In this document: piece by piece, positions 23,862-37,277 of the stretch | Layout of the letters: every line of letters begins with the position of its first letter | Numbering within the stretch: the first letter of the stretch is position 1 | Notes under the pieces: generated by a model | Seen by the model: only the letters and a program-made list of their open reading frames with translations | Database searches by the model: none | What the model was told of the DNA's origin: nothing | Assembly (NCBI GenBank): GCA_016787785.1 | Contig: JAEUTO010000009.1 | Coordinates: 1 to 64,000 of the forward strand | DNA from: Bacteroidia bacterium | GTDB lineage: Bacteria > Bacteroidota > Bacteroidia > B-17B0 > Aurantibacillaceae | Direction: 5' to 3' | Length of the DNA stretch: 64,000 bases | Position numbers and translations under genes: made by a program

Positions 23862-24470
23862 ATGATGCCAAAATCATACAAAACTGCTCTTTTTTGCCTT
23901 TTTTTTGCGATTTTTTCGTTCAAACAAGAAAGCTCCTTTTTTCAAAAACTGGTTGTTCAGGCGGTAAACCAAACTAAAATAAAAGTAACCTATGTTCCTG
24001 CTTATGTTCAGATAAAATATCCAAATGGAGACGTTCCGGCAAACACTGGTGTTTGCACCGACCTTGTTATCAGGGCCTATCGGGGTGTTGGAATTGATCT
24101 CCAAAAAGAAGTGCATGAGGATATGGTGAAACACTTTAAGAATTACCCTAAATTATGGAAGCTGAAAGCACCGGATACCAATATCGATCACAGAAGGGTG
24201 CCCAATCTAATGACCTATTTTAAAAATAAAAAAGCCGAATTAACAGTAACGGAGAATGCTGAAGATTATAAACCCGGTGATCTGGTTACCTGGAACCTTC
24301 AAAATAAAAAGGTAATGAGCGGTATTACTCACATTGGTATTATTACTGACCAGCGATCACTTGATGGTAAACGTTATCTTGTTGCCCATAACATTGGAGG
24401 CGGCAATACCATTGAGGATATGCTCTTTTCTTATACCATAATCGGGCATTATCGATTTAAAGGGCAGTAG
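23862..24470 (+). CDS. DUF1287 family secreted protein
   Basis: A 202-residue exported protein with an N-terminal signal (first 20 residues, FCLFFAIFSF core). The DUF1287 pattern is clear: NTGVCTDLVIRAYRGVGIDL (Cys, Asp), DTNIDHRRVPNL, GDLVTWNL, HIGIITDQ and NIGGG. The fold resembles NlpC/P60 cysteine peptidases, with the Cys in GVCTD and the His in THIGI as likely catalytic pair. Activity on peptidoglycan is a family-level guess. Divergent from rfbA and upstream of the giant genes. Confidence 0.85.
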   Translation: MMPKSYKTALFCLFFAIFSFKQESSFFQKLVVQAVNQTKIKVTYVPAYVQIKYPNGDVPANTGVCTDLVIRAYRGVGIDLQKEVHEDMVKHFKNYPKLWKLKAPDTNIDHRRVPNLMTYFKNKKAELTVTENAEDYKPGDLVTWNLQNKKVMSGITHIGIITDQRSLDGKRYLVAHNIGGGNTIEDMLFSYTIIGHYRFKGQ

Positions 24471-24581: not shown

Positions 24582-24678
24582 TTTATCAGTGATAAGTTAA
24601 TTTTTAGATTAACTAATATCAAGAAAACAACAAATGAAAAAAAGAGAGCTTAAATATAAATTCGTTGAAAGAAATCTT

Positions 24679-27600
24679 ATGAAAAAGTTTATCATATCTT
24701 TATTAGTAATAGTGGCATTTACCAGTGTTCGTGGGCAAGTTTTGGCACCAATCGCTCCATCTGCCACATCTTTAAATTTCGCATTTACCGGTGGAATTCA
24801 AACATTTACCGTTCCAAGTACCCTGTGCGTAACTACGGTTACATTTGTTGTTAGGGGTGCACGAGGCGGTGGCGGTGGCGGCGGTTTAGGAGCTGCAATA
24901 CAAGCAACTTATGCAGTAACACCCGGTCAGGTATTTCAAATTATGGTAGGTGGTGCCGGAACTCAGGGAGCTGCTTCAGGCGGTTTTAATGGTGGTGGTA
25001 CTGGTCAAGCCTCTACTGGCGCTGCGGCTTATGCATCATTTGGAGGTGGAGGTGCTTCGGATGTTAGGGTAGCACCTTTCGCTTTAGCAAACAGAATATT
25101 AGTTGCCGGTGGCGGCGGCGGTGCTGGCGGCGGTTCAGGTTCGGTATGCGGCGGAGCAGCAAATTGCAATAACGGCGCTCCAGGATGTAATACTTATGGT
25201 TCTGGTGGCGGTGGCGGAACACAAGTTGCTGGTGGTGTTGGTGGCACACCTTGGGCAGGAACTCCTCCCGGAGGTTCTCCCGGAGCATTAGGTATTGGCG
25301 GTCAAGGTGGTCCGTGGCAAACTGCATCTGGCGGCGGCGGCGGCGGCGGTTATTACGGCGGCGGCGGCGGCGGAAACGACGGTTGTTGTACCGGTGCAAA
25401 CGGCGGCGGCGGCGGCGGCGGCGGATCAAGTTTTTATCCAGCAGGCTCATTATGTGCACCTGCAGCTCAAAATGGAAATGGAAGTGTAACCGTTTATTAT
25501 CTCCCAGGTATAAAACCAACTGTTAATGAAAGCTATGCAATGTGCTCTCGTTCAGCACCTGCATTAAATACATTAAGTTTATCAGCTCAAATAACAACAA
25601 CAGCTACAGGTGTTTTAACTTTCTCTTGGACAGGACCGGGCGGCTTTAGTAGTGTTGTAAATTCAACAGCAACGGCTGTTAACCCAGTTCCAACACCAAC
25701 TACTGGAAATTATATGACCCAGACAACCCCGGGTCCGGGTACTGTAATAACTACACAATTTTTATATACTCCCAACCCAACTTCATTAGCTAGTGGTATT
25801 TACACTGTTTATGCTGGCTCAAATGGTACAGTTGGCGCTTGCGCAAGTACAGTGCAAGTTATGGTAAATCCAACACCTACAATTTCGGTATTTGCCGTAA
25901 ATGCACCAGCTTGTCAAGGCACAACCTTAAACTTTTCATTAACACCAATAAACCCTACGGTTGCTGCAGCCGGTCAGACTGTAAGTTCTCTTTACTCTTG
26001 GTTAGGTCCAAATAGTTTTGCTTCAAATACGCAATCACCATCCATTGTAAACTCCAGCTCATTAAATGCCGGAACATACAGCGGATCTGCTGTTTACAAT
26101 TATACGCAGGCTTTGGCAAGTACAGTTTTTACCACTGCACCAAATACGCCTTTAATATTTACATCAACATTAACCTGTAAAAAAGATACAAGTTTAGTGG
26201 CAGTTATTATTAATACGGCTACGCCTTCCAGTGCAAATTACACGCTTTGCCCGGGATCCACCCTAAACTTAAATACGACTATACCTTTACAGCCTACAGC
26301 TTTTTCTTGGGTTGGTCCTGCAGGTTACACTTCAACTGCTCAAAGTCCGGTTATTAGTAATGTAACGCCGGTTAATTCGGGTAATTATAGTTTAACTGCT
26401 CTGTTTACGAACCCTACCACTACGTTAGTTTGTTTCCAGACATCGGTAAGCAATTTATCGGTTGTTCCAACGTCGCCAGTTGCTGTTAACGTGACAAATA
26501 ACTTATGTCAGTTTACAACAGCAAATCTCAGCGCATTAGCGCCTGGTGCTATTGGGTATTCGTGGGTTGGTCCAAACAACTTTACATCTAATTTACAAGC
26601 TACTACGATTAGTAACATTCAACCAGTTTCTTCGGGAGTTTATTTTTCAACGGCTACGTTTGCAATTGGATCTGTTAGTTGTACTACCACCGGATCTAAT
26701 CAAATAAACGTGGTGCCTGTTAATCCTATTGTTGTGACGCCTACAATAAGTATTTGCGAGCCCGCAAATGCACAGTTATCTGCAAGTTCAAATGGTGCAG
26801 CAACTTATTCTTGGACTGGTCCAAATAGTTTTAGTGCAACAGCTGCTAACCCTACAATGTACTTCAGTACGCCATCTCTTACGGGTATATATACGGTTAC
26901 CGCTTCTTATAATAATGGTGCTTTAATATGTTACAATACAAATACAACTCAATTAACTGTTAATCCACGATTGACATTTACATTAGTGCCATATAAACAA
27001 ATGTGTTATAACTCACTATTAAATGTAGCTGGTCCTGCAGGTGCAACGTCTTATTCTTGGACAAGTTCTACTGGATATACATCTAATTCTCAAAACCTTG
27101 TAATACCGGGTATCCAACCAAATCAATCAGGTTCGTATACTTTAAATGTTTCGTTAGGGCCATGTGTTACCACGCAAAAAATTGATATTGATGTACTAAA
27201 TCCAATATCATTTACTTTAACACCGCAAGACAGAACTATCTGTAGAGGTGATAGCGTTAAATTAGTTGCAGGATCAACAGGTGGAAGTCAGAACTACGCA
27301 TATGTTTGGACACCGGGTGTATTCCTAGGTTCTCCTACAGGTAGTGTACAATACGGTCATCCTTTGGGAACAACTATTTACAATCTTGCAGGTTATGATA
27401 TTGCTTGTCCTAACTATACTGTTTTCCATACATTCACAGTTACAGTTAATCAACCGCCAATGGTAGATCTTCAACTGAATAAAGAGCAAGGCTGCGAACC
27501 GTTATGTTTATTTTATAACACTAAAACACAAAATAGTGCGGCAATTACAACTTACGATTTCGGTGGCACTAATATCATGCAGGCGGATAGCTTTAGCTAC

Positions 27601-28251
27601 TGTCTTGATCAACCGGGAACTTATAACTTAAGAATTACTTCTTTAGGTAAGAATGGATGTAAAGGTGTTTACGATCATCCAATGCCAATAGTTGTTTGGC
27701 CAAAACCGCATTCAGATTTTAACTGGACGCCAGATGTAGTAACTACCAGCAACAATCAGGTAACCTTTAATCCAATGTCTAAATACGGCCCTGTAACAAG
27801 CTTGAACTGGATGTTCTCTGGTACTGGAATTAGTGGATACGATTCTTCGAATGTTCAACATCCTGAACGTGTTTTCGAAAATCCGGGTTTTTATCCTATC
27901 ATGTTGATCCAAAGAACAGACAAAGGTTGTGTGGATTCAGTGATCAAAAATATTGAAGTTGTTGAAGACTTTAATGTTTACATTCCAAATTCATTTACAC
28001 CAAATGGTGATGGATTAAATGATATGTTCATTGTAAAAGGTTTAGGATTTAAAACGGAAGGTTTTAGTATGGAAATGTTCGATCGTTGGGGTAATTCTTT
28101 ATTCTTTAGTAAAGATTGCACGAAAGGGTGGGATGGAACGGTAAAAGGAATTCAGTCGCAAGATGGTGTTTATATTTACAAGATCAGAGCAGTTGGAGCT
28201 AATGGACAAGGACGCAAAGAATACGTTGGCCATGTTACGTTAATGAAGTAA
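24679..28251 (+). CDS. giant type IX-secreted protein 1 with ALK-like glycine-rich head
   Basis: A 1190-residue protein. The ATG at 24679 is preferred because it gives a clean signal peptide (residues 1-20, ending SVRGQ); an upstream ATG at 24634 would add 15 residues. Residues about 34-275 form a glycine-rich domain with the segment order of the ALK/LTK glycine-rich (PF12810-type) domain. Next come Ig-like modules marked by SW-GP motifs (for example AIGYSWVGPNNFTSN), a PKD-like region, and the last 91 residues form the gliding-motility-associated C-terminal domain (VYIPNSFTPNGDGLND, RWGN, GWDG, DGVYIYKI), a type B sorting signal. The last roughly 690 residues parallel those of the next gene. 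Adhesion or matrix role is inferred. Confidence 0.88.
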   Translation: MKKFIISLLVIVAFTSVRGQVLAPIAPSATSLNFAFTGGIQTFTVPSTLCVTTVTFVVRGARGGGGGGGLGAAIQATYAVTPGQVFQIMVGGAGTQGAASGGFNGGGTGQASTGAAAYASFGGGGASDVRVAPFALANRILVAGGGGGAGGGSGSVCGGAANCNNGAPGCNTYGSGGGGGTQVAGGVGGTPWAGTPPGGSPGALGIGGQGGPWQTASGGGGGGGYYGGGGGGNDGCCTGANGGGGGGGGSSFYPAGSLCAPAAQNGNGSVTVYYLPGIKPTVNESYAMCSRSAPALNTLSLSAQITTTATGVLTFSWTGPGGFSSVVNSTATAVNPVPTPTTGNYMTQTTPGPGTVITTQFLYTPNPTSLASGIYTVYAGSNGTVGACASTVQVMVNPTPTISVFAVNAPACQGTTLNFSLTPINPTVAAAGQTVSSLYSWLGPNSFASNTQSPSIVNSSSLNAGTYSGSAVYNYTQALASTVFTTAPNTPLIFTSTLTCKKDTSLVAVIINTATPSSANYTLCPGSTLNLNTTIPLQPTAFSWVGPAGYTSTAQSPVISNVTPVNSGNYSLTALFTNPTTTLVCFQTSVSNLSVVPTSPVAVNVTNNLCQFTTANLSALAPGAIGYSWVGPNNFTSNLQATTISNIQPVSSGVYFSTATFAIGSVSCTTTGSNQINVVPVNPIVVTPTISICEPANAQLSASSNGAATYSWTGPNSFSATAANPTMYFSTPSLTGIYTVTASYNNGALICYNTNTTQLTVNPRLTFTLVPYKQMCYNSLLNVAGPAGATSYSWTSSTGYTSNSQNLVIPGIQPNQSGSYTLNVSLGPCVTTQKIDIDVLNPISFTLTPQDRTICRGDSVKLVAGSTGGSQNYAYVWTPGVFLGSPTGSVQYGHPLGTTIYNLAGYDIACPNYTVFHTFTVTVNQPPMVDLQLNKEQGCEPLCLFYNTKTQNSAAITTYDFGGTNIMQADSFSYCLDQPGTYNLRITSLGKNGCKGVYDHPMPIVVWPKPHSDFNWTPDVVTTSNNQVTFNPMSKYGPVTSLNWMFSGTGISGYDSSNVQHPERVFENPGFYPIMLIQRTDKGCVDSVIKNIEVVEDFNVYIPNSFTPNGDGLNDMFIVKGLGFKTEGFSMEMFDRWGNSLFFSKDCTKGWDGTVKGIQSQDGVYIYKIRAVGANGQGRKEYVGHVTLMK
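25320..25430 (+). repeat. GGC trinucleotide runs in the glycine-rich head
   Basis: Three close runs of GGC/GGT codons occur, coding for 5-8 consecutive glycines each, in otherwise AT-rich DNA. Changes in copy number would keep the frame. All other frames stay open here by composition only. Confidence 0.7.
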
Positions 28252-28270
28252 ATATTTTAAAATTTTTATA

Positions 28271-28308
28271 AAGATCCTGCTCGTTTTTTACGGGCGGGAT
28301 CTTTTATT
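28271..28308 (+). terminator. intrinsic terminator after giant gene 1
   Basis: A 13-bp stem (28271-28283 with 28291-28303, two G-T type mismatches) closes a 7-base loop and is followed by TTTATTTT. It separates giant genes 1 and 2, so each is probably transcribed on its own. The rest of 28310-28490 shows no gene. Confidence 0.8.
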
Positions 28309-28490
28309 TTAATGACATTCTATTGTTTCTTTTTAAAGTGTTAAAAACTGACTTTCACAGGCTTTTTGTGAATTAAAACGGTTTAAGTAAAAAACGTGTC
28401 TTCGCATACTTCGTGAATAGCCCCTTAAAATGAGGGAATAATTTGTTAAGCGCTCTCTGAAACAATATCTTTATATAAACATCTACCCTA

Positions 28491-31400
28491 ATGAAAAACT
28501 CCATAAAATTTCTCTTCGTTTGTTTGTTGCTAAATGTCTCGGTATTTGCGCAAACATACACCAATCCGCTGCCGGGCACTCCTTGTCCTACTTGTTATAT
28601 TGCCCCTCCAACATCAAGCGGACCAAAAGGGGGAAATTCGAACAATAGCGTAATGAATGGTAATGGATCTCTTGCTACTACTTACACGCAAACAGCTTGT
28701 GGATTAGGGTTTACACAGGTTTCTGCGAGATTGCATAAAAGGGTATTTGGTGGTGTTCCTCCGGGAACAGGTACCACTCAACCTTGTCCAATTGTAGTTT
28801 CAGGCATTCCTGCAGGTGCAATTATTCAGGCAGCCTTCTTATATGCTGGTGGTTCTGGTGCAACAGGCTCAGGAAATTTTAATGCTACTATAACTAATCC
28901 TTCTGCAATTAGTCAGGTTTTTGCAATGACACAGATAGGTTTCCACACTGATAAATGCTGGGGCTATGGCGGCACTTGGACATCGCGTGCTAACGTTACA
29001 TCAATCATAACAGGAAACGGTACATATTCTCTTAGTGGTTGTCCGGTTATGCCTCAGGCTCCTTCTAAAGATACAGACGGTGCAACTTTATTTATCGTTT
29101 ATGTAGACCCCGCTTTAAATATTACGGGAAGTATAGTCATTGCCGACGGTTGTTTAGTTGGTATTGGTGGTACAGTTAACAATGTTATTTCTGGTTTTAA
29201 TGTTTGTGGTAATCCTACGAGCACTTCAAATTTTATGGTTGTTGGCGATCTTCAAAAGATCTCTGCTCCAAATATCCGCATGAACAGTCTTGTAAATAAT
29301 GCAACTTATCCTGTTGCTTCACAACAATGCTGGGATTATATTCAAGCACCTGGTGCACCTGCGGTAAACGGACAAACTACAGCAAACTATGGTCTTACAA
29401 GTACTGGTGATTGTTATTCAATAAATATGTGTGGCATGTTCTATCAAACGGGTCCTTGCTTAACAGTTACAGCAATGAGTACACCATCTTGTCCAACTTC
29501 AAACGCAACTGTAACTGTTTTAGGCGGTAATCCTGCATATACTTACACCTGGACACCGACAGCTCAAAGCACGTCTGTTGCTACAAATCTTTTATCCGGC
29601 AGTTACACTGTAGTTGTTAAAGATAATTTAGGTTGTAAAACCGGTAGCGCAGTAGTTTCAGTAACAACCACTCCTTTAAACCCAATAACTATTACAGGCG
29701 GTACAATTTGTAGCGGTAATTCTGTGAACTTAACAGCTAACGGCGCACCAACATATACATGGGCTCCGCCAGCAACATTAAATACTATAAGCGGTCCAAA
29801 CGTTACGGCTAATCCTATGGCCACAACGGTTTACTCTGTGTCGTTTACAAATACTGCCGGTTGTGTGGGTACACAAACCACACAGGTTATAGTTAATGCT
29901 ACACCAACAATTGCAACTGTCACCAATAACGGTCCGGTTTGCCAGGGTTTACCGGTAACACTATCTGTTAACAGCACTGTTGCGGGCGCAACAACTTACG
30001 CATGGACAGGGCCAAATGGTTACAATGCAAACACCCAAAATCCTTCTATCGCAAGCCCTGTACCAAATGATTCAGGAACATATTCTGTAACAGTAACAAA
30101 TACATTTACTAACGGAGGGGTCTGTCAGGCTTCCGGCTCAACAAACATGGCTGTTGTGCCTGTGTCACAAGTTGCAGTAACGCCAAGCTTCACACTTTGT
30201 CAGGCGGCAAACTTAAGTCTCGTTTCAAATGCGCCAGGTGCAACTTCATATTCATGGACCGGTCCGGCACCATTTACATCTGTGATACAAAATCCAAGCA
30301 TTCCAAATTTGATGCCCGCTAACTCAGGTAACTATAGTGTAACAGCTTATTTTACAAGCCCTGTAACAACTTTAGTTTGTACTTCGAATGCGGTAACAAA
30401 CGTATCGGTAGTTCCAACGTCACCGGTAGCAGTTACTGTTCCAAACAATCTTTGTCAGTTTGCTACTGCTAACATCAGTGCTTTAGCACCAGGTGCGGTA
30501 GGTTATTCTTGGATAGGACCAAACAACTTTAGTTCTAATTTACAGGCAACATCAATTCCAAATATTCAACCTGCCAATGCAGGAGTTTATTTTTCAACTG
30601 CAACTTTTGCAATTGGAACTGTAAGTTGCACAATTACCGGTTCAAATCAAATATCGGTTGTACCAGTTAATCCAGTTAATGTTACACCAACCGTGAGCGT
30701 TTGTGAGCCAAGTAATGCGTCATTAAATTCAGCTTCACAAGGTGCTGCTACTTATTCATGGTCTGGTCCGAATGGTTATAATGCACAAGGCGCTAACGTT
30801 ACCTTGTATCTTCCAACATCAGCCGCTACGGGCATTTATACTGTGTTCACTTCTTACAATAACGGCTCGCTTATTTGCTACAATCAAAACACAGTGCAGT
30901 TAACTGTAAATCCTATCATAACATTTACAATGGATGCTTACAGACAAATGTGTTATAACAGTTTATTGAATGTTGCAGGTCCGGGGGGAGCAACAACTTA
31001 CACGTGGGTTGGTTCAACAGGATTTACATCTAACTCTCAAAACCTTACTATTCCTTCAATTCAGCCGAATCAATCAGGAACATATACTTTAAATGTTCAA
31101 CTAGGACCTTGTATCACATCTCAAAAAATACAAATAGATGTGTTAACGCCACTAGCTTATACCTTAACGCCGCCAAATCAAACAATTTGTAGAGGAGACA
31201 GTGTTAAGTTAATTGTTGGATCTACAGGTGGTAGTCAGAATTACGCTTACGTTTGGACGCCGGGAGTATTCCTGGGCTCGCCTACCGGTAGTGTACAATA
31301 TGGCCATCCTTTAGGAACAACAGTATATAATCTGGCTGGGTACGATATTGCTTGCCCTAACTACACAGTTTTCTACACATTTACAGTTACTGTTGGTCAA

Positions 31401-32198
31401 CCTCCAATGCCGGATCTTCAATTAGGAAAAGACCAAGGCTGTGAACCGTTATGTTTATTTTATAACACTAAAACGCAAAATGAAGCAGCTGTAACGACTT
31501 TTGATTTTGGTGGCGGACAAATAATGCAGGCAGATAGTTTCTACCACTGTCTTACAGAGCCGGGCATTTACAATTTAAAAATTTCTTCGTTAGGTAAAAA
31601 TGGTTGTAGAGGTGTTTACGATTATCCTAATCCAATTGTTGTTTGGCCAAAACCACGTTCGGATTTTAATTGGGATCCGGATGTAGTTACTACAAGTAAT
31701 AACCAGGTGACTTTTAACCCAATGTCTCAGTACGGCCCAATAACCAGTATTAACTGGATGTTCAGTGGAACCGGTGTTAATGGTTATGATACTGCTAACG
31801 TACAACATCCACAACGTATCTTCGAAACGCCGGGTAAGTACCCTGTGATGTTAATTCAAAGAACCGATAAGGGTTGTGTTGACACTGTGGTTAAATTCCT
31901 TGATATTGTTGAAGACTTTAATGTATTCATCCCAAATACGTTTACGCCAAATGGTGATGGAAATAACGAGGTGTTTAACGTAAAAGGCTTAGGCCTTAAA
32001 GCAACAGGTTACAGTATGGAAATATTTGATCGTTGGGGTCATTTGATCTACCAATCTAAAGATGTTACTAAAGGCTGGGATGGCACTGTTAAAGGGGTTG
32101 CGGCACAAGACGGTGTTTATATTTATAAGATCTTTGCAACAGGAGCTAATAATGAAGGACGCAAACAATATGTAGGTCACGTTACTTTAATGAAATAG
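28491..32198 (+). CDS. giant type IX-secreted protein 2
   Basis: A 1235-residue protein with a signal peptide (residues 1-21, ending SVFAQ). The head (about residues 22-325) has paired cysteines and the segment IIQAAFLYAGGSG, resembling DUF3344-like secreted domains. A SprB-type repeat follows (about 330-395, ending TVVVKDNLGCKTGSA), then Ig-like modules with YSWTGP/YSWIGP motifs. From about residue 545 on the order of modules is the same as in giant protein 1, and blocks such as GSPTGSVQYGHPLGTT are identical. The last 91 residues are the type B C-terminal sorting domain (VFIPNTFTPNGDGNNE, DGVYIYKI). The head is unrelated to those of its neighbours. Confidence 0.9.
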   Translation: MKNSIKFLFVCLLLNVSVFAQTYTNPLPGTPCPTCYIAPPTSSGPKGGNSNNSVMNGNGSLATTYTQTACGLGFTQVSARLHKRVFGGVPPGTGTTQPCPIVVSGIPAGAIIQAAFLYAGGSGATGSGNFNATITNPSAISQVFAMTQIGFHTDKCWGYGGTWTSRANVTSIITGNGTYSLSGCPVMPQAPSKDTDGATLFIVYVDPALNITGSIVIADGCLVGIGGTVNNVISGFNVCGNPTSTSNFMVVGDLQKISAPNIRMNSLVNNATYPVASQQCWDYIQAPGAPAVNGQTTANYGLTSTGDCYSINMCGMFYQTGPCLTVTAMSTPSCPTSNATVTVLGGNPAYTYTWTPTAQSTSVATNLLSGSYTVVVKDNLGCKTGSAVVSVTTTPLNPITITGGTICSGNSVNLTANGAPTYTWAPPATLNTISGPNVTANPMATTVYSVSFTNTAGCVGTQTTQVIVNATPTIATVTNNGPVCQGLPVTLSVNSTVAGATTYAWTGPNGYNANTQNPSIASPVPNDSGTYSVTVTNTFTNGGVCQASGSTNMAVVPVSQVAVTPSFTLCQAANLSLVSNAPGATSYSWTGPAPFTSVIQNPSIPNLMPANSGNYSVTAYFTSPVTTLVCTSNAVTNVSVVPTSPVAVTVPNNLCQFATANISALAPGAVGYSWIGPNNFSSNLQATSIPNIQPANAGVYFSTATFAIGTVSCTITGSNQISVVPVNPVNVTPTVSVCEPSNASLNSASQGAATYSWSGPNGYNAQGANVTLYLPTSAATGIYTVFTSYNNGSLICYNQNTVQLTVNPIITFTMDAYRQMCYNSLLNVAGPGGATTYTWVGSTGFTSNSQNLTIPSIQPNQSGTYTLNVQLGPCITSQKIQIDVLTPLAYTLTPPNQTICRGDSVKLIVGSTGGSQNYAYVWTPGVFLGSPTGSVQYGHPLGTTVYNLAGYDIACPNYTVFYTFTVTVGQPPMPDLQLGKDQGCEPLCLFYNTKTQNEAAVTTFDFGGGQIMQADSFYHCLTEPGIYNLKISSLGKNGCRGVYDYPNPIVVWPKPRSDFNWDPDVVTTSNNQVTFNPMSQYGPITSINWMFSGTGVNGYDTANVQHPQRIFETPGKYPVMLIQRTDKGCVDTVVKFLDIVEDFNVFIPNTFTPNGDGNNEVFNVKGLGLKATGYSMEIFDRWGHLIYQSKDVTKGWDGTVKGVAAQDGVYIYKIFATGANNEGRKQYVGHVTLMK

Positions 32199-32217
32199 TC
32201 ACAATACAATTTATGTG

Positions 32218-32252
32218 AATCCCTCTCGCTAAAACGGGAGGGATTTTCTTTT
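32218..32252 (+). terminator. intrinsic terminator after giant gene 2
   Basis: An 11-bp perfect stem AATCCCTCTCG (32218-32228) with CGGGAGGGATT (32235-32245) around a 6-base loop, followed by TTCTTTT. The remaining gap to 32418 holds a possible -7 box TAACTTTG at 32350-32357 and no gene. Confidence 0.85.
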
Positions 32253-32417
32253 ATACCCACAGAGGGGTATTTTCGTGTTCGGGTGGCTGCAAACTGAGTA
32301 AAACCGCGGTTTTGCTTAGGGAAAACAGCCTTCTTCTCAATAAAATGCATAACTTTGTGTGGTCAATTTTGCACAGTTTGTTAAAACCTTTTAGGAAAGA
32401 AAATACTTTAGTATTTA

Positions 32418-35400
32418 ATGAATAAAATTTTCTTTAAAATAGTTATCATCTGTATGTTGATCGTAGGATCACAGCGTAATTTTTATTCTCAAAATCCGGC
32501 TGCCTGTGCTAATACTCAAAATCTTTGCACCAATTCTCTTTTTAGTTTTTCGGCAAGTGCAGGAACAGGTTTAACACCGGGTTTAAATATCAGTAACCCC
32601 TTTGGTAATCCACAAGCTGTAAACGCAGGTTGTATGTTTACGAATGTTGCCAATCCGCAATGGTTAATGATAAACATTACTTCATCCGGAAATTTAGGTT
32701 TTTCTTTTGGTGCCTTTGGTTCAGCATTTCCTCAAGCTGGAAATTATGATTGGATCATGTGGCCATACTCGCCAACGGCATGTAACGATATTTTTAATAA
32801 CACCTTGCCCCCCGTTGCGTGTAATTGGAACTGCACAGGCTCTGGTGGTACAGGCATGGGAACAGTTCCTCCGGGTGGTTCGTTTTGCAATTTTCAACCT
32901 TCTATTCCGGTAGTACAAGGACAACAATTTATTATTTTAATTACCAATCCAAGTGGCGTAAATACACCCGTTTCATTTGCCAATACCGGTACCGCAGGCA
33001 TGTCGTGTAACCCATTATTGTTCCCTAACCTTACGGCATGCCCCGGACAGTTAGCGGTTTTTACAGGAACCTGGGTTAATGCAAGCAGCGGAACGTATAC
33101 ACTTTATCCTGGCGCCATTGTACAGACAAGCCCTTCGTTCACAGTTAGCTCTTTGGTTAATCAGGTTTATACAGTACAGGCACAGGGTTTAAATACTTCT
33201 GCTGTACCTATTGCAGATCAAACAACATTTACGTTAACGATCAATCCCGTTATTCCAATTTCGGTTACAACACCAACTAACTTTTGTTACGGAAGTAACG
33301 CAACCTTCACAATAAATCCAACAGGGAGTGGTTCGTTTAGTGTTACCGGACCTGCGTCTCCAACATCCACATTTGCTACAACTTCTATCTCTGTTCCAAA
33401 TATCACTACTCCAAATATTGGCACGTTCTCAATAACAGCAAGTTACACGAATGGTTGCACGGGTACACAAACCACGCAAGTGAATGTGGCGCCAAATCAT
33501 TCAATTACGGTAAGCACAAGTAGCAATGCATGTCAAGGCGCCACAGTAAACTTAACATCATCCATGCCAACCGCTACAGCTTATGCTTGGACAGGGCCGG
33601 GGGCTTATTCATCGGCATTGCAAAACCCATCTATCAATACGATTCAACCTACGTCGTCAGGAATTTATACGGTGAGTTCAAATATTAACTTTAATGGCAT
33701 CGCATGTGCTAAAACAAACACCATGCAAATTGACGTGGTTGCAACTAATACTGTGGCCATCACACCAAACTTTACATTATGCGAGGGTGCTAATTTAAAT
33801 TTAACCGCCAGCGCTGTGCCAGCAGTTTCTTATTCATGGTCAGGCCCGGGAACATATACTTCCGGTTTGCAAAATCCAACACGTGCCGGGATCGTACCTT
33901 CAGATGCCGGTAATTATTCTGTCACGGCTCTTTTCACGAATGGTTCTATTACCTGCACAACCGGTGCTGTCTCAAACGTGTCAGTTGTGGCTACCTCGCC
34001 GGTAACAGTTACTGTGCCAAATAACATTTGTCAGAATGCCACAGCTAATTTGTTGGCTAATACTGTTCCTGCGCCTTTGTCGTACGTTTGGGCAGGACCA
34101 AATTCTTTTACTTCAAATATTGCCGCTCCGTTTATTTCCAGTATTCAAACTAACGGTTCTGGGATTTATACAACCACGGCAACTTTTGCAATTGGAACAG
34201 TGAGTTGTGCCACTACAGGTACGAATCAAATTAGCGTTGTTGGCACCAATACAGTGGCAGTTACTCCTAACTTTACCGTGTGTGAAGGTGCAAATTTAAA
34301 TTTAACTTCAAGTGCAACTTCTGCAGTTTCGTATTCCTGGAATGGACCTGCAAGCTATACATCAGCAACACAAAACCCAATTATAAATAATATTGTTCCT
34401 ACTGGTTCAGGTAATTATACTGCAACTGCTTATTTTAACAATGGCGTTTTAACCTGCACTACTTCTGCGGTTTCCAATGTATCTGTTGTTCCTATTTCTA
34501 CTGTAAGTGTTATTGTTCCTGCAAATATTTGTCAGAATGCTACTGCTAACATGACTGCCAGTGCTACAGGTGCTATAGGTTACACATGGTCTGGACCAAA
34601 TACTTTTACTTCAAACATTGCATCGCCTTCAATCGTAAATATTCAACCTGCTGGTTCGGGCGTTTACACTGCAACTGCTACTTTCGCCATTGGAACTGTA
34701 AGTTGCGCAACAGCAGGCACCAATCAAATTTCTGTAGTTGCAACTAATCCTGTAACAGTAACACCAACATTTACCTTATGTGAAGGCGCAAATTTAAATT
34801 TGCTTTCAAGTGCTACATCCGCAGCCTCTTATTCATGGAATGGTCCGGGCGTATTTACTTCTGCATTGCAAAACCCAACAGTTACATCTGTTTTACCTAC
34901 CGCTTCGGGTAACTATACTGCAACAGCCTTTTTCACGAATGGTTTTTTAACCTGCACTACTTCTGCGGTCTCTAATGTATCAGTTGTACCAACTCCTACT
35001 ATTACGGTTACTTATCCTGCAAACATCTGTCAGAATACAACGCTTAACTTATCAGCAGCTGCCCCCGGCGCTTTATCTTACGCCTGGGCCGGACCAAACG
35101 GATTTATTTCAAACATTACCGCACCTAACATTCCAAACATTCAAACAGTTGGCGCAGGGGTGTATTCAACTACAGCTTTCTTCTCAATTGGAACGGTTAC
35201 CTGTTCAAATACTTCTACCAACCAAATAAATGTGGTGGGTACGAGCACAGTTAACGTCACACCAACATTTACTGTGTGCGAAGGTGCTAATATAAATTTA
35301 ACGGCAAATGCTGCTTCTGCCATATCTTATTCATGGGCGGGAGTGGGCAGTTACACATCGGCTATTCAAAACGCAACCGTAGCGGGTGTGTTACCAACCA

Positions 35401-37277
35401 GTGCAGGCAACTATACTGCCACCGCACTTTTTAGTAATGGAAGTTTAACCTGCGCTACTACAGGTGTATCTAACGTTTCGGTGGTTGCCACACCTGCTGT
35501 AAATGTAATTATTCCTGCAAATATTTGTCAAAATGCAACAGCTACACTTTCTACAAGTGCGGTTGGCGCTATTTCTTATTCCTGGAACGGACCTAATAGT
35601 TTCTCTTCAAACTTAGCGTCTACTTCAATTGTCAATATACAACCCAATGGCGCGGGCGTATATACCTCCACAGCCATGTTCTCTATTGGTTCTGTAAGTT
35701 GCACAAACACAGGAACAAATCAATTAGCTGTTGTAGCAATTAATTCTATAACCGTTAATTCAATAATGAATGGTTGTGCTTTACAAACAAATGTTTTACA
35801 AGCAAATTCAATTGGTGCTGTGTCTTATTTTTGGAATGGACCAGCTAGTTACACCGCTGCTGTTGCTAATGCAACTATTTACAACACACCTGTTACCGCA
35901 GCGGGTATCTATACAATTACAACACAATACACAAATGGTTTCTTAACCTGTACAAACTCAAACACCTTAAACTTAATTGTTAACCCGGTAATTTCTTTCA
36001 CGTTACCTACATCACAGTTTGCCTGTTATAATTCAGTATTAACTATTCCGGGCCCTGCTGGCGCAACATCTTATACCTGGCAAAATGCAAGCGGCGTTAT
36101 TGCAAGCACACAAAACCTTGTTATTCCAAATGTAAATCTTACTAATTCGGGTACTTACAGCTTAACAGCATCCATTGGTTTTTGTGCAACAACCGAAACA
36201 ATTGTGGTGAATGTTTCTACACCTATTCAATATACCTTAGTGCCAACCAATACAACAATTTGCAGGGGTGATAGTGTTAAACTTAAAGTTGGTTCTCATG
36301 GCGGCTCAGCAAACTATGCCTATACATGGAATCCCGGAAGTTTTTTAAGTTCTCCAACAGGTAGCATTCAAACGGCTGTTCCATTTGGAACAGTGATCTA
36401 TAATATTTACGCTTACGATATTGCTTGTCCTTCTTATACAATTGCACACACATTTACTATTAATGTGAAACAACCGCCAATACCGGATCTGCGTATGGAA
36501 AATGCTATTGGTTGCGAACCTTTCTGTGCTTTTTATAATGCAAAGATCGGTACAGATGCGGTTTCTGTGACCTACGATTTTGGAAATGGTGTTTCACCGG
36601 TTGAAGCGGATAGTTTTTATTATTGCCTTCCTAATGCGGGAACATATACACTCAATATCTTAACCAAAGGTACAAATGGTTGCTCCGGTAAATTTCAGTA
36701 CTTAGATCCGATCGTTGTAAATCCGAGCCCTAAGGCAGATTTTCGTTATTTGCCCGAACAGCCTACAGTTGCCAGTAACCAGGTTATCTTTTTCCCAAGC
36801 GCGCAAAACGGTCCAATTGTAACGCAAACCTGGATGTTTACCGGTACAGGGCAAAGCGGTTACGATTCAACTTCCAATACATTAAATCCTATTCGTTATT
36901 TTTCTGAAGTAGGGAAATATCCCGTAATGCTTATCTCTATTACCGATCTTGGTTGTGCAGACACAGTATTTAAATTGGTTGAAGTGATAGATGATTATGT
37001 TGTGTACATTCCAAACACGTTTACACCAAACGGTGACGGTAAAAATGACCTTTTTATTGCGCAGGGCATTGGTTTTTCTAAAGACGATTTTATAATGGAA
37101 CTATTTGCACACAATGGTAACCAGGTGTATTTTTCAAGAGATTACAGCAAAGGCTGGGATGGTACAATAAAAGGCAAAGATGCCGAGGTTGGTACTTATA
37201 TTTACAAGATAAAAGTGCTTGGAACGCACGGCGAAGGCTATAAAGAGTATATGGGCTATATAAATCTTATACGGTAA
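32418..37277 (+). CDS. giant type IX-secreted protein 3 with alternating Ig repeats
   Basis: A 1619-residue protein with a signal peptide (residues 1-25). The head (about 26-245) contains a block widespread in Bacteroidota adhesins (NPQWLMINITSSGNLGFSF, YDWIMWPY, QGQQFIILITNPS). About twelve Ig-like modules follow. Eight of them (about residues 437-1104) alternate between two types, A (CEGANLNL) and B (CQNATANL), as four A-B pairs. Then come modules shared with giants 1 and 2 (ICRGDSVKL, GCEPFCAFYN, PKADF) and the C-terminal type B sorting domain (VYIPNTFTPNGDGKND, GTYIYKIKV). The stalk is longer than in the other two, mainly through the A-B pairs. Confidence 0.9.
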   Translation: MNKIFFKIVIICMLIVGSQRNFYSQNPAACANTQNLCTNSLFSFSASAGTGLTPGLNISNPFGNPQAVNAGCMFTNVANPQWLMINITSSGNLGFSFGAFGSAFPQAGNYDWIMWPYSPTACNDIFNNTLPPVACNWNCTGSGGTGMGTVPPGGSFCNFQPSIPVVQGQQFIILITNPSGVNTPVSFANTGTAGMSCNPLLFPNLTACPGQLAVFTGTWVNASSGTYTLYPGAIVQTSPSFTVSSLVNQVYTVQAQGLNTSAVPIADQTTFTLTINPVIPISVTTPTNFCYGSNATFTINPTGSGSFSVTGPASPTSTFATTSISVPNITTPNIGTFSITASYTNGCTGTQTTQVNVAPNHSITVSTSSNACQGATVNLTSSMPTATAYAWTGPGAYSSALQNPSINTIQPTSSGIYTVSSNINFNGIACAKTNTMQIDVVATNTVAITPNFTLCEGANLNLTASAVPAVSYSWSGPGTYTSGLQNPTRAGIVPSDAGNYSVTALFTNGSITCTTGAVSNVSVVATSPVTVTVPNNICQNATANLLANTVPAPLSYVWAGPNSFTSNIAAPFISSIQTNGSGIYTTTATFAIGTVSCATTGTNQISVVGTNTVAVTPNFTVCEGANLNLTSSATSAVSYSWNGPASYTSATQNPIINNIVPTGSGNYTATAYFNNGVLTCTTSAVSNVSVVPISTVSVIVPANICQNATANMTASATGAIGYTWSGPNTFTSNIASPSIVNIQPAGSGVYTATATFAIGTVSCATAGTNQISVVATNPVTVTPTFTLCEGANLNLLSSATSAASYSWNGPGVFTSALQNPTVTSVLPTASGNYTATAFFTNGFLTCTTSAVSNVSVVPTPTITVTYPANICQNTTLNLSAAAPGALSYAWAGPNGFISNITAPNIPNIQTVGAGVYSTTAFFSIGTVTCSNTSTNQINVVGTSTVNVTPTFTVCEGANINLTANAASAISYSWAGVGSYTSAIQNATVAGVLPTSAGNYTATALFSNGSLTCATTGVSNVSVVATPAVNVIIPANICQNATATLSTSAVGAISYSWNGPNSFSSNLASTSIVNIQPNGAGVYTSTAMFSIGSVSCTNTGTNQLAVVAINSITVNSIMNGCALQTNVLQANSIGAVSYFWNGPASYTAAVANATIYNTPVTAAGIYTITTQYTNGFLTCTNSNTLNLIVNPVISFTLPTSQFACYNSVLTIPGPAGATSYTWQNASGVIASTQNLVIPNVNLTNSGTYSLTASIGFCATTETIVVNVSTPIQYTLVPTNTTICRGDSVKLKVGSHGGSANYAYTWNPGSFLSSPTGSIQTAVPFGTVIYNIYAYDIACPSYTIAHTFTINVKQPPIPDLRMENAIGCEPFCAFYNAKIGTDAVSVTYDFGNGVSPVEADSFYYCLPNAGTYTLNILTKGTNGCSGKFQYLDPIVVNPSPKADFRYLPEQPTVASNQVIFFPSAQNGPIVTQTWMFTGTGQSGYDSTSNTLNPIRYFSEVGKYPVMLISITDLGCADTVFKLVEVIDDYVVYIPNTFTPNGDGKNDLFIAQGIGFSKDDFIMELFAHNGNQVYFSRDYSKGWDGTIKGKDAEVGTYIYKIKVLGTHGEGYKEYMGYINLIR
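33730..35735 (+). repeat. four-copy A-B higher-order repeat, period 498-501 bp
   Basis: The type-A cysteine codon recurs at 33780, 34281, 34779 and 35277; the type-B cysteine codon at 34029, 34530, 35028 and 35526. Spacings are 501, 498 and 498 bp in both series. Within a pair A and B differ more than A from A or B from B, so pairs were duplicated as units. Confidence 0.85.

Follow-up and report, generated by a model that had tools for sequence, protein, structure and literature searches.

An ALK/LTK-type glycine-rich domain at the head of a predicted type IX-secreted protein from a Bacteroidia bacterium

The window, i.e. the whole stretch of 64,000 nucleotides from a Bacteroidia bacterium that was analyzed, harbors on its forward strand an open reading frame at 24634..28251 (+), which encodes a protein of 1205 amino acids. 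According to Pfam and NCBIfam, this protein is a predicted cargo of the type IX secretion system (T9SS), composed of a signal peptide, an ALK/LTK-type glycine-rich head, a stalk of Ig-like and PKD repeats and a type B sorting domain. Candidates for the start codon are located at 24634 (residue 1) and 24679 (residue 16). Residues 16-34 (24679..24735, +), read by eye from the second methionine, are likely to represent the signal peptide, with cleavage before Gln35, which matches the Q-rule described for signal peptides of Bacteroidetes (PMC5837995). The glycine-rich domain comprises residues 43-293 (24760..25512, +; domain residues 1-251), as delimited by PF12810, the profile of alignment A2 and AlphaFold2 (see below). 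It is followed by the stalk (25516..27981, +), which was assigned by Pfam and by comparison of the paralogues, and by the sorting domain at the C-terminus (27982..28245, +), which scores above the cut-off with both TIGR04131 (53.4 bits, cut-off 35) and CHU_C (60.9 bits, cut-off 27). A search of the same genome for the T9SS machinery, covering SprA and PorV, identified SprA with 2353.1 bits and four matches to the PorV family, the best with 408.5 bits, and the type B sorting domain occurs at 57 places in this genome (E ≤ 0.001), 56 of them above the cut-off. The protein is predicted to be a T9SS type B cargo, in agreement with the initial annotation as type IX-secreted, and not a receptor kinase; its location on the cell surface is likewise predicted, from the sorting domain and from the presence of SprA and PorV in this genome.

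Three T9SS type B genes, which carry different heads on related Ig/PKD stalks, are arranged in tandem at 24634-37277. The second gene (28491..32198, +) and the third one (32418..37277, +; 1619 amino acids), both assessed by Pfam, NCBIfam and pairwise comparison, each combine another head with a stalk and tail of this type. The product of the second gene is 62% identical to the 1205-residue protein from residue 295 to the end, i.e. starting just past the glycine-rich domain, and the heads of these two paralogues do not match each other at E 1e-5. In the third gene, stalk and tail are 43-44% identical. Among the best stretches listed by Pfam at E ≤ 0.1, no family extends over the head of either the second or the third gene product. 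Because the neighbor has the same stalk but not the same head, the glycine-rich domain presents itself, at the level of sequence comparison, as a swappable tip, i.e. as the product of an exchange of heads on a shared stalk. Two more glycine-rich domains are located side by side on contig 2 of the same genome (275607-278110; L118 and L119; 117 and 25 bits), the former on a protein of 538 amino acids, where it lies between Ig-like repeats and is accompanied by a T9SS type A-like tail, as read by eye. A DUF1287 gene is found at 23862-24470, just upstream of the head-bearing gene. In a related metagenome-assembled genome (L031), a frame of the length and strand of the DUF1287 gene lies at the same place, and the three upstream frames are the same as in the window in length, strand and order, the frames being compared by these properties alone.

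The glycine-rich region had initially been annotated at 24778-25503 (+) as a relative of the glycine-rich domain of human ALK, which was based on a common order of short segments. The region as such stands and corresponds to residues 49-290, while its former designation as residues 34-275 was counted from the second methionine, residue 16. The segments VPST, IMVGGAG, ILVAGGGGG, GGGGGGYYGG, SFY and GNGSVTVYY are all found in the 1205-residue protein, the counterparts given for ALK (VPAT, ILVGQQG, LIIAAGGGG, GGGGGGYIGG, SFI and GHGEVNIKH) are present in the ALK chain of the PDB in identical order, and the two sets are aligned to each other by a profile. The search with PF12810 (ALK_LTK_GRD), which had been proposed along with the annotation, gave a significant match to residues 43-293 (47.3 bits, gathering cut-off 24.5; profile positions 12-200 of 243), and PF21722 (Gly_rich_2) remained below its cut-off on the head (16.3 and 16.6 bits vs 24.3). 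A PF12810 profile search of the same genome returned no match, with its controls silent as well, but hmmscan does match the window protein.

For a first alignment (A1), the window domain was combined with 24 of the 30 loci obtained in a search of 100 genomes, leaving out the window itself (L001) as well as near-copies or partial loci (L003-L005, L009, L030). PF12810 is matched by 22 of the 25 members (E ≤ 0.01). Among 177,635 distinct PDB sequences, the A1 profile found nine at E ≤ 1: seven of ALK and one of LTK, with E values between 3e-6 and 0.008, and, at 0.069, a putative transcription initiation factor. A second alignment (A2), the relatives of which were picked without any PDB sequence and filtered for full length, a score of 40 bits, length and redundancy, comprises the window domain and 106 of 107 selected domains (L059:3556-4341 is absent). 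At E ≤ 0.001, 101 of its 107 members match PF12810, with a best E value of 6e-45, and six match PF21722. The A2 profile recovered the same eight ALK/LTK sequences as A1, seven of ALK and one of LTK, from the 177,635 PDB sequences (E 5.8e-16 to 3.5e-15; next E 0.09), the match running end to end (profile positions 13 to 245-246 of 251). The same profile retrieved the head from its own genome at 24763-25506 (E 3.7e-54). ALK of C. elegans (7lir), which is present in the PDB, is absent from the sequence matches of both A1 and A2 and was found by fold. As a single query, the window domain hit no PDB chain at E ≤ 1, and phmmer with ALK as a single sequence failed on the window domain (-61.9 bits) and found two of the 107 domains below E 1e-3. 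Since single-sequence searches fail both ways, the signal is detectable only with a profile.

With the A2 profile, the ALK domain obtains 60.4 bits. Full shuffles of ALK (n = 2000) reached at most 0.7 bits and the reversed ALK sequence -3.3 bits, and shuffles in which every glycine was fixed (n = 2000) reached at most 29.1 bits, with a mean of -7.1. We therefore conclude that a large share of the signal comes from where the non-glycine residues stand. On the basis of the shuffles, convergence via glycine content is rejected. That glycine-rich low complexity arose on both sides without common descent is an explanation to which we give very little credence: the glycine content of the head (34% for residues 43-293), the failure of the single-sequence searches with the window domain against the PDB and with ALK against the window domain, and the C. 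elegans ALK missed by both profiles would speak for it, but the shuffles with fixed glycines account for no more than 29.1 of the 60.4 bits, ALK and LTK are the sole PDB matches better than E 0.06 with either alignment, and the predicted fold agrees end to end, strands included.

To model the head, AlphaFold2 was run on alignment A2 without templates, which resulted in a confident prediction (pLDDT 95.9, pTM 0.93). DSSP assigns nine strands to this model, which make up 54 of the 251 residues, the remainder including long stretches that are confidently modeled but belong to neither helices nor strands. Strands one to four of the beta sandwich lie at domain residues 3-8, 13-17, 26-32 and 44-52 (24766..24915, +), accompanied by a glycine-rich turn (domain residues 33-43). 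Between strands, a glycine-rich arm extends over domain residues 63-99 (24946..25056, +); it was delimited by DSSP and the map of conservation and indels and is variable near 71 and 81-93. The main glycine-rich arm (domain residues 117-230; 25108..25449, +), for which the structure match was considered in addition, contains GGGGGGGYYGGGGGG and GGGGGGGGSSFYP, and the domain ends with two closing strands (domain residues 231-237 and 242-247; 25450..25500, +; DSSP), which include GNGSVTVYY.

Foldseek found 89 matches in the PDB at E ≤ 10, of which ranks 1-21 are all ALK/LTK (E 4.7e-8 to 4.7e-5), with loose superpositions (TM 0.39-0.49 by query length, rmsd 8.6-10.6 Å), followed by a Bxb1 tail tip protein (E 3.2e-4) and the Pam3 fiber (E 2.6e-3). 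Most of the ALK/LTK structures were released in late 2021, and the AlphaFold2 training set consists of PDB entries older than these releases. A second aligner, VIA, was run on the chains ranked highest by Foldseek and gave Z 16.6 for LTK (3.1 Å, 187 residues, 30% identity), Z 15.6-16.4 for other ALK entries, Z 14.8 for C. elegans ALK, and Z 9.8 and 8.9 for the phage proteins of Pam3 and Bxb1, respectively; the remaining matches listed have Z ≤ 4.7. The nearest solved structures are consequently LTK/ALK glycine-rich domains over the whole length, and together with PF12810 and the profile match this supports the annotated homology to the glycine-rich domain of ALK/LTK. From the model, the head is predicted to be a TNF-like sandwich with glycine-rich insertions, i.e. 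to adopt an ALK/LTK-like fold. The VIA alignments to ALK/LTK span 186-197 of 251 residues, more than 130 beyond the number of strand residues, and as strands account for only 54 residues of the model, the bulk of the aligned positions belongs to the glycine-rich part, which leads us to expect packed polyglycine II helices in the modeled bacterial head. For the arm at domain residues 63-99, the match to ALK/LTK likewise suggests a polyglycine II state.

In a library of predicted viral structures, the model has 146 matches at E ≤ 0.001. Among the best 50, ten phage and algal-virus proteins bear the name 'receptor protein-tyrosine kinase'. Many of the lower rows among the best 50 have TM-scores near 0.3, so that part of these proteins may have only the glycine-rich packing in common with the model. 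A tblastn search of the head against phage records, with the low-complexity filter on, gave no match.

The 100 genomes searched with the domain comprised the own genome, 39 of the same genus and 60 others, and matches were obtained in 46, i.e. in the own genome, 32 of the 39 and 13 of the 60. Across the phylum the distribution is patchy: at E ≤ 1e-10, matches occur in eight of 198 genomes, one of which is the own genome. In a scan of genome contigs, the best 80 of at least 95 confirmed relatives were kept, viral contigs contributed six loci, and the loci listed include isolates of Dactylosporangium, Clostridium and Paenibacillus. A frame holds between one and seven matched stretches; six with nearly equal scores were observed in each of two loci (L048, L059) and seven in another (L085), apparently as tandem arrays. 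Proteins were compared in a set (A3) of the window protein and 66 complete distinct frames out of 99 (32 run off the locus and one is a duplicate), which contains a few fragment frames overlapping in one locus (L048, L059). C-terminal tails of these 67 proteins, the window protein included, match Por_Secre_tail in 30 and CHU_C in 20 cases, two sets that may overlap. For a further subset (A4), which consists of 44 of the 67 whole proteins, PF12810 was matched in 36 at E ≤ 0.001 and not in the other eight. Among the 25 of 37 partner families listed for this subset, PKD_4 is present in 13, Ig_7 in 12, SprB repeats in four and prophage tail domains in two of the 44 proteins.

The indel map of the 107 A2 rows indicates that the main insertion sites fall between the glycine blocks. 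Insertions after domain residues 39, 71, 127, 145, 185 and 227 are present in 84, 54, 74, 74, 42 and 90 of the 107 rows, respectively, and an insertion of one residue after residue 85 in 41; strands rarely carry insertions (eight rows after residue 236, six after residue 237). Among five orthologues, dN/dS amounts to 0.121 for the glycine-rich part, 0.157 for the strands and 0.127 for the part of the stalk that was compared, and the head is 91% identical vs 85% for the stalk. We asked whether the tips evolve faster in these five orthologues and saw no sign of it. With a glycine-rich part that changes no faster than the strands, and a head more conserved than the stalk, there is no indication of an arms race at the tips. 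The conservation of the head among orthologues is in keeping with a ligand that stays the same, or with like heads contacting each other. A turn with CCTGAN at 25372-25404 (domain residues 205-215) is unchanged among the five orthologues; domain residues 205-213 are missing in at least 40% of the A2 rows. This turn is a candidate for a contact site.

What the head does in the cell is proposed here by comparison with proteins of the same fold. The reading that we favor, and hold to be reasonably probable, is that a homologue of the ALK/LTK glycine-rich domain forms the outermost, probably ligand-binding head of a T9SS surface protein on an Ig/PKD stalk. By analogy, a surface-recognition head built like the tips of phage fibers appears most likely. 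The type IX system would export the protein, the Ig/PKD stalk would hold the head away from the cell, the conserved polyglycine bundle might serve as a rigid scaffold, and the variable outer turns of this bundle may bind the ligand, which could be a glycan, a partner cell or a particle. The idea of a rigid bundle with variable turns pointing outward is based on the analogy with the phage protein Pam3 gp24, which has a conserved glycine-rich stem and a hypervariable tip proposed to bind receptors (PMC9608196).

With fold and homology unchanged, the head might instead associate with itself, in TNF-like oligomers or in head-to-head contacts between cells, rather than with a foreign ligand. We regard this as unlikely, even though the Pam3 fiber of the same fold is described as a trimer (PMC9608196) and the head is as well kept among orthologues as a self-contact would be, since the several copies per chain in relatives (six in L048 and L059, seven in L085) are not obviously suited to trimers. 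The flat polyglycine bundle could also serve passively as a spacer, or as a plate that binds ice or minerals and resembles the antifreeze proteins of springtails; helical antifreeze proteins of the polyproline II type are indeed described for Collembola (PMC10235112), but the best structural matches of the head are domains of receptors and of phage fibers and tail tips, which excludes nothing, and we consider such a role improbable. That the head is a receptor for an ALKAL-like peptide, as in ALK, would be in line with the same fold of the domain, but the protein has no kinase, EGF-like or MAM domain (Pfam, E ≤ 0.1), and this explanation is the least credible of all. A search for the ALKAL family in the own genome had no match, and its controls were silent too.

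Databases already contain PF12810 members from bacteria and phages, and in them the relation to ALK is not new. No report of a T9SS head of this kind was found in the literature searched, a body of literature that misses most subscription journals. Because the window protein has only an extracellular domain in common with the receptor, it seems misleading to call viral proteins of this fold 'receptor protein-tyrosine kinase'; such names were probably carried over from the animal receptors. As to the origin of the domain, we put forward, as a tentative scenario with the odds rather against it, that the ligand-binding core of ALK/LTK descends from a prokaryotic or phage recognition head via gene transfer and later fusion to a kinase, and that the bacterial heads retain the ancestral role, in which turns on a polyglycine bundle serve to recognize other cells. 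With more than 100 natural variants, and with heads naturally exchanged on one stalk, the domain offers a testable bacterial model of the rare polyglycine domain of the ALK type.

Several known systems can be compared with the protein. SprB-type gliding adhesins are, like the 1205-residue protein, long T9SS cargo; SprB repeats accompany the domain in the four relatives named above, among the families listed, and the Pfam scan found none in the 1205-residue protein. The glycine-rich domain of the BspA-like proteins of Trichomonas, which we take to be PF12810, resembles the head in its N-terminal position on long surface proteins, a comparison made by description. In 2010, this domain of Trichomonas vaginalis was described as also occurring in Flavobacteria bacterium MS024-3C, in phages of C. 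difficile and in Bacillus cereus (PMC2843621); the phrase 'anaplastic lymphoma kinase' has a count of zero in PMC2843621. Among phages, the tail tip protein of the mycobacteriophage Bxb1 (9d93_Qa; Foldseek E 3.2e-4; Z 8.9, 3.4 Å over 136 residues) differs in being a component of a phage tail and has 21% identity. Closer by Z score is gp24 of Pam3 (7ypx, 7yfw), in which a TNF-like sandwich is likewise combined with a distal glycine-rich domain (PMC9608196) and which aligns with the model by VIA at Z 9.8 and 2.6 Å over 135-137 residues; it differs as a trimeric phage fiber with a helical shaft and a chaperone, is described as structurally similar to C. elegans ALK (PMC9608196), and is absent from the A2 sequence matches in the PDB at E ≤ 1. 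Bundles of glycine-rich polyproline II helices are described for both ALK/LTK and gp38 of phage S16 (PMC13243192). The closest likeness is to the glycine-rich/TNF-like domain of ALK/LTK (7lrz, 7mzy, 7nx0, 7nx1 and, by fold only, 7lir), with which the head has the order of segments and the end-to-end profile match in common, together with a fold at Z 14.8-16.6 and 22-31% identity over 186-197 residues. The bacterial protein differs from ALK/LTK in that it is devoid of EGF-like, MAM and kinase domains and carries a T9SS sorting domain, so that only the domain is common to both, not the receptor. One fold links a domain of animal receptors, the tips of phage fibers and bacterial surface proteins.
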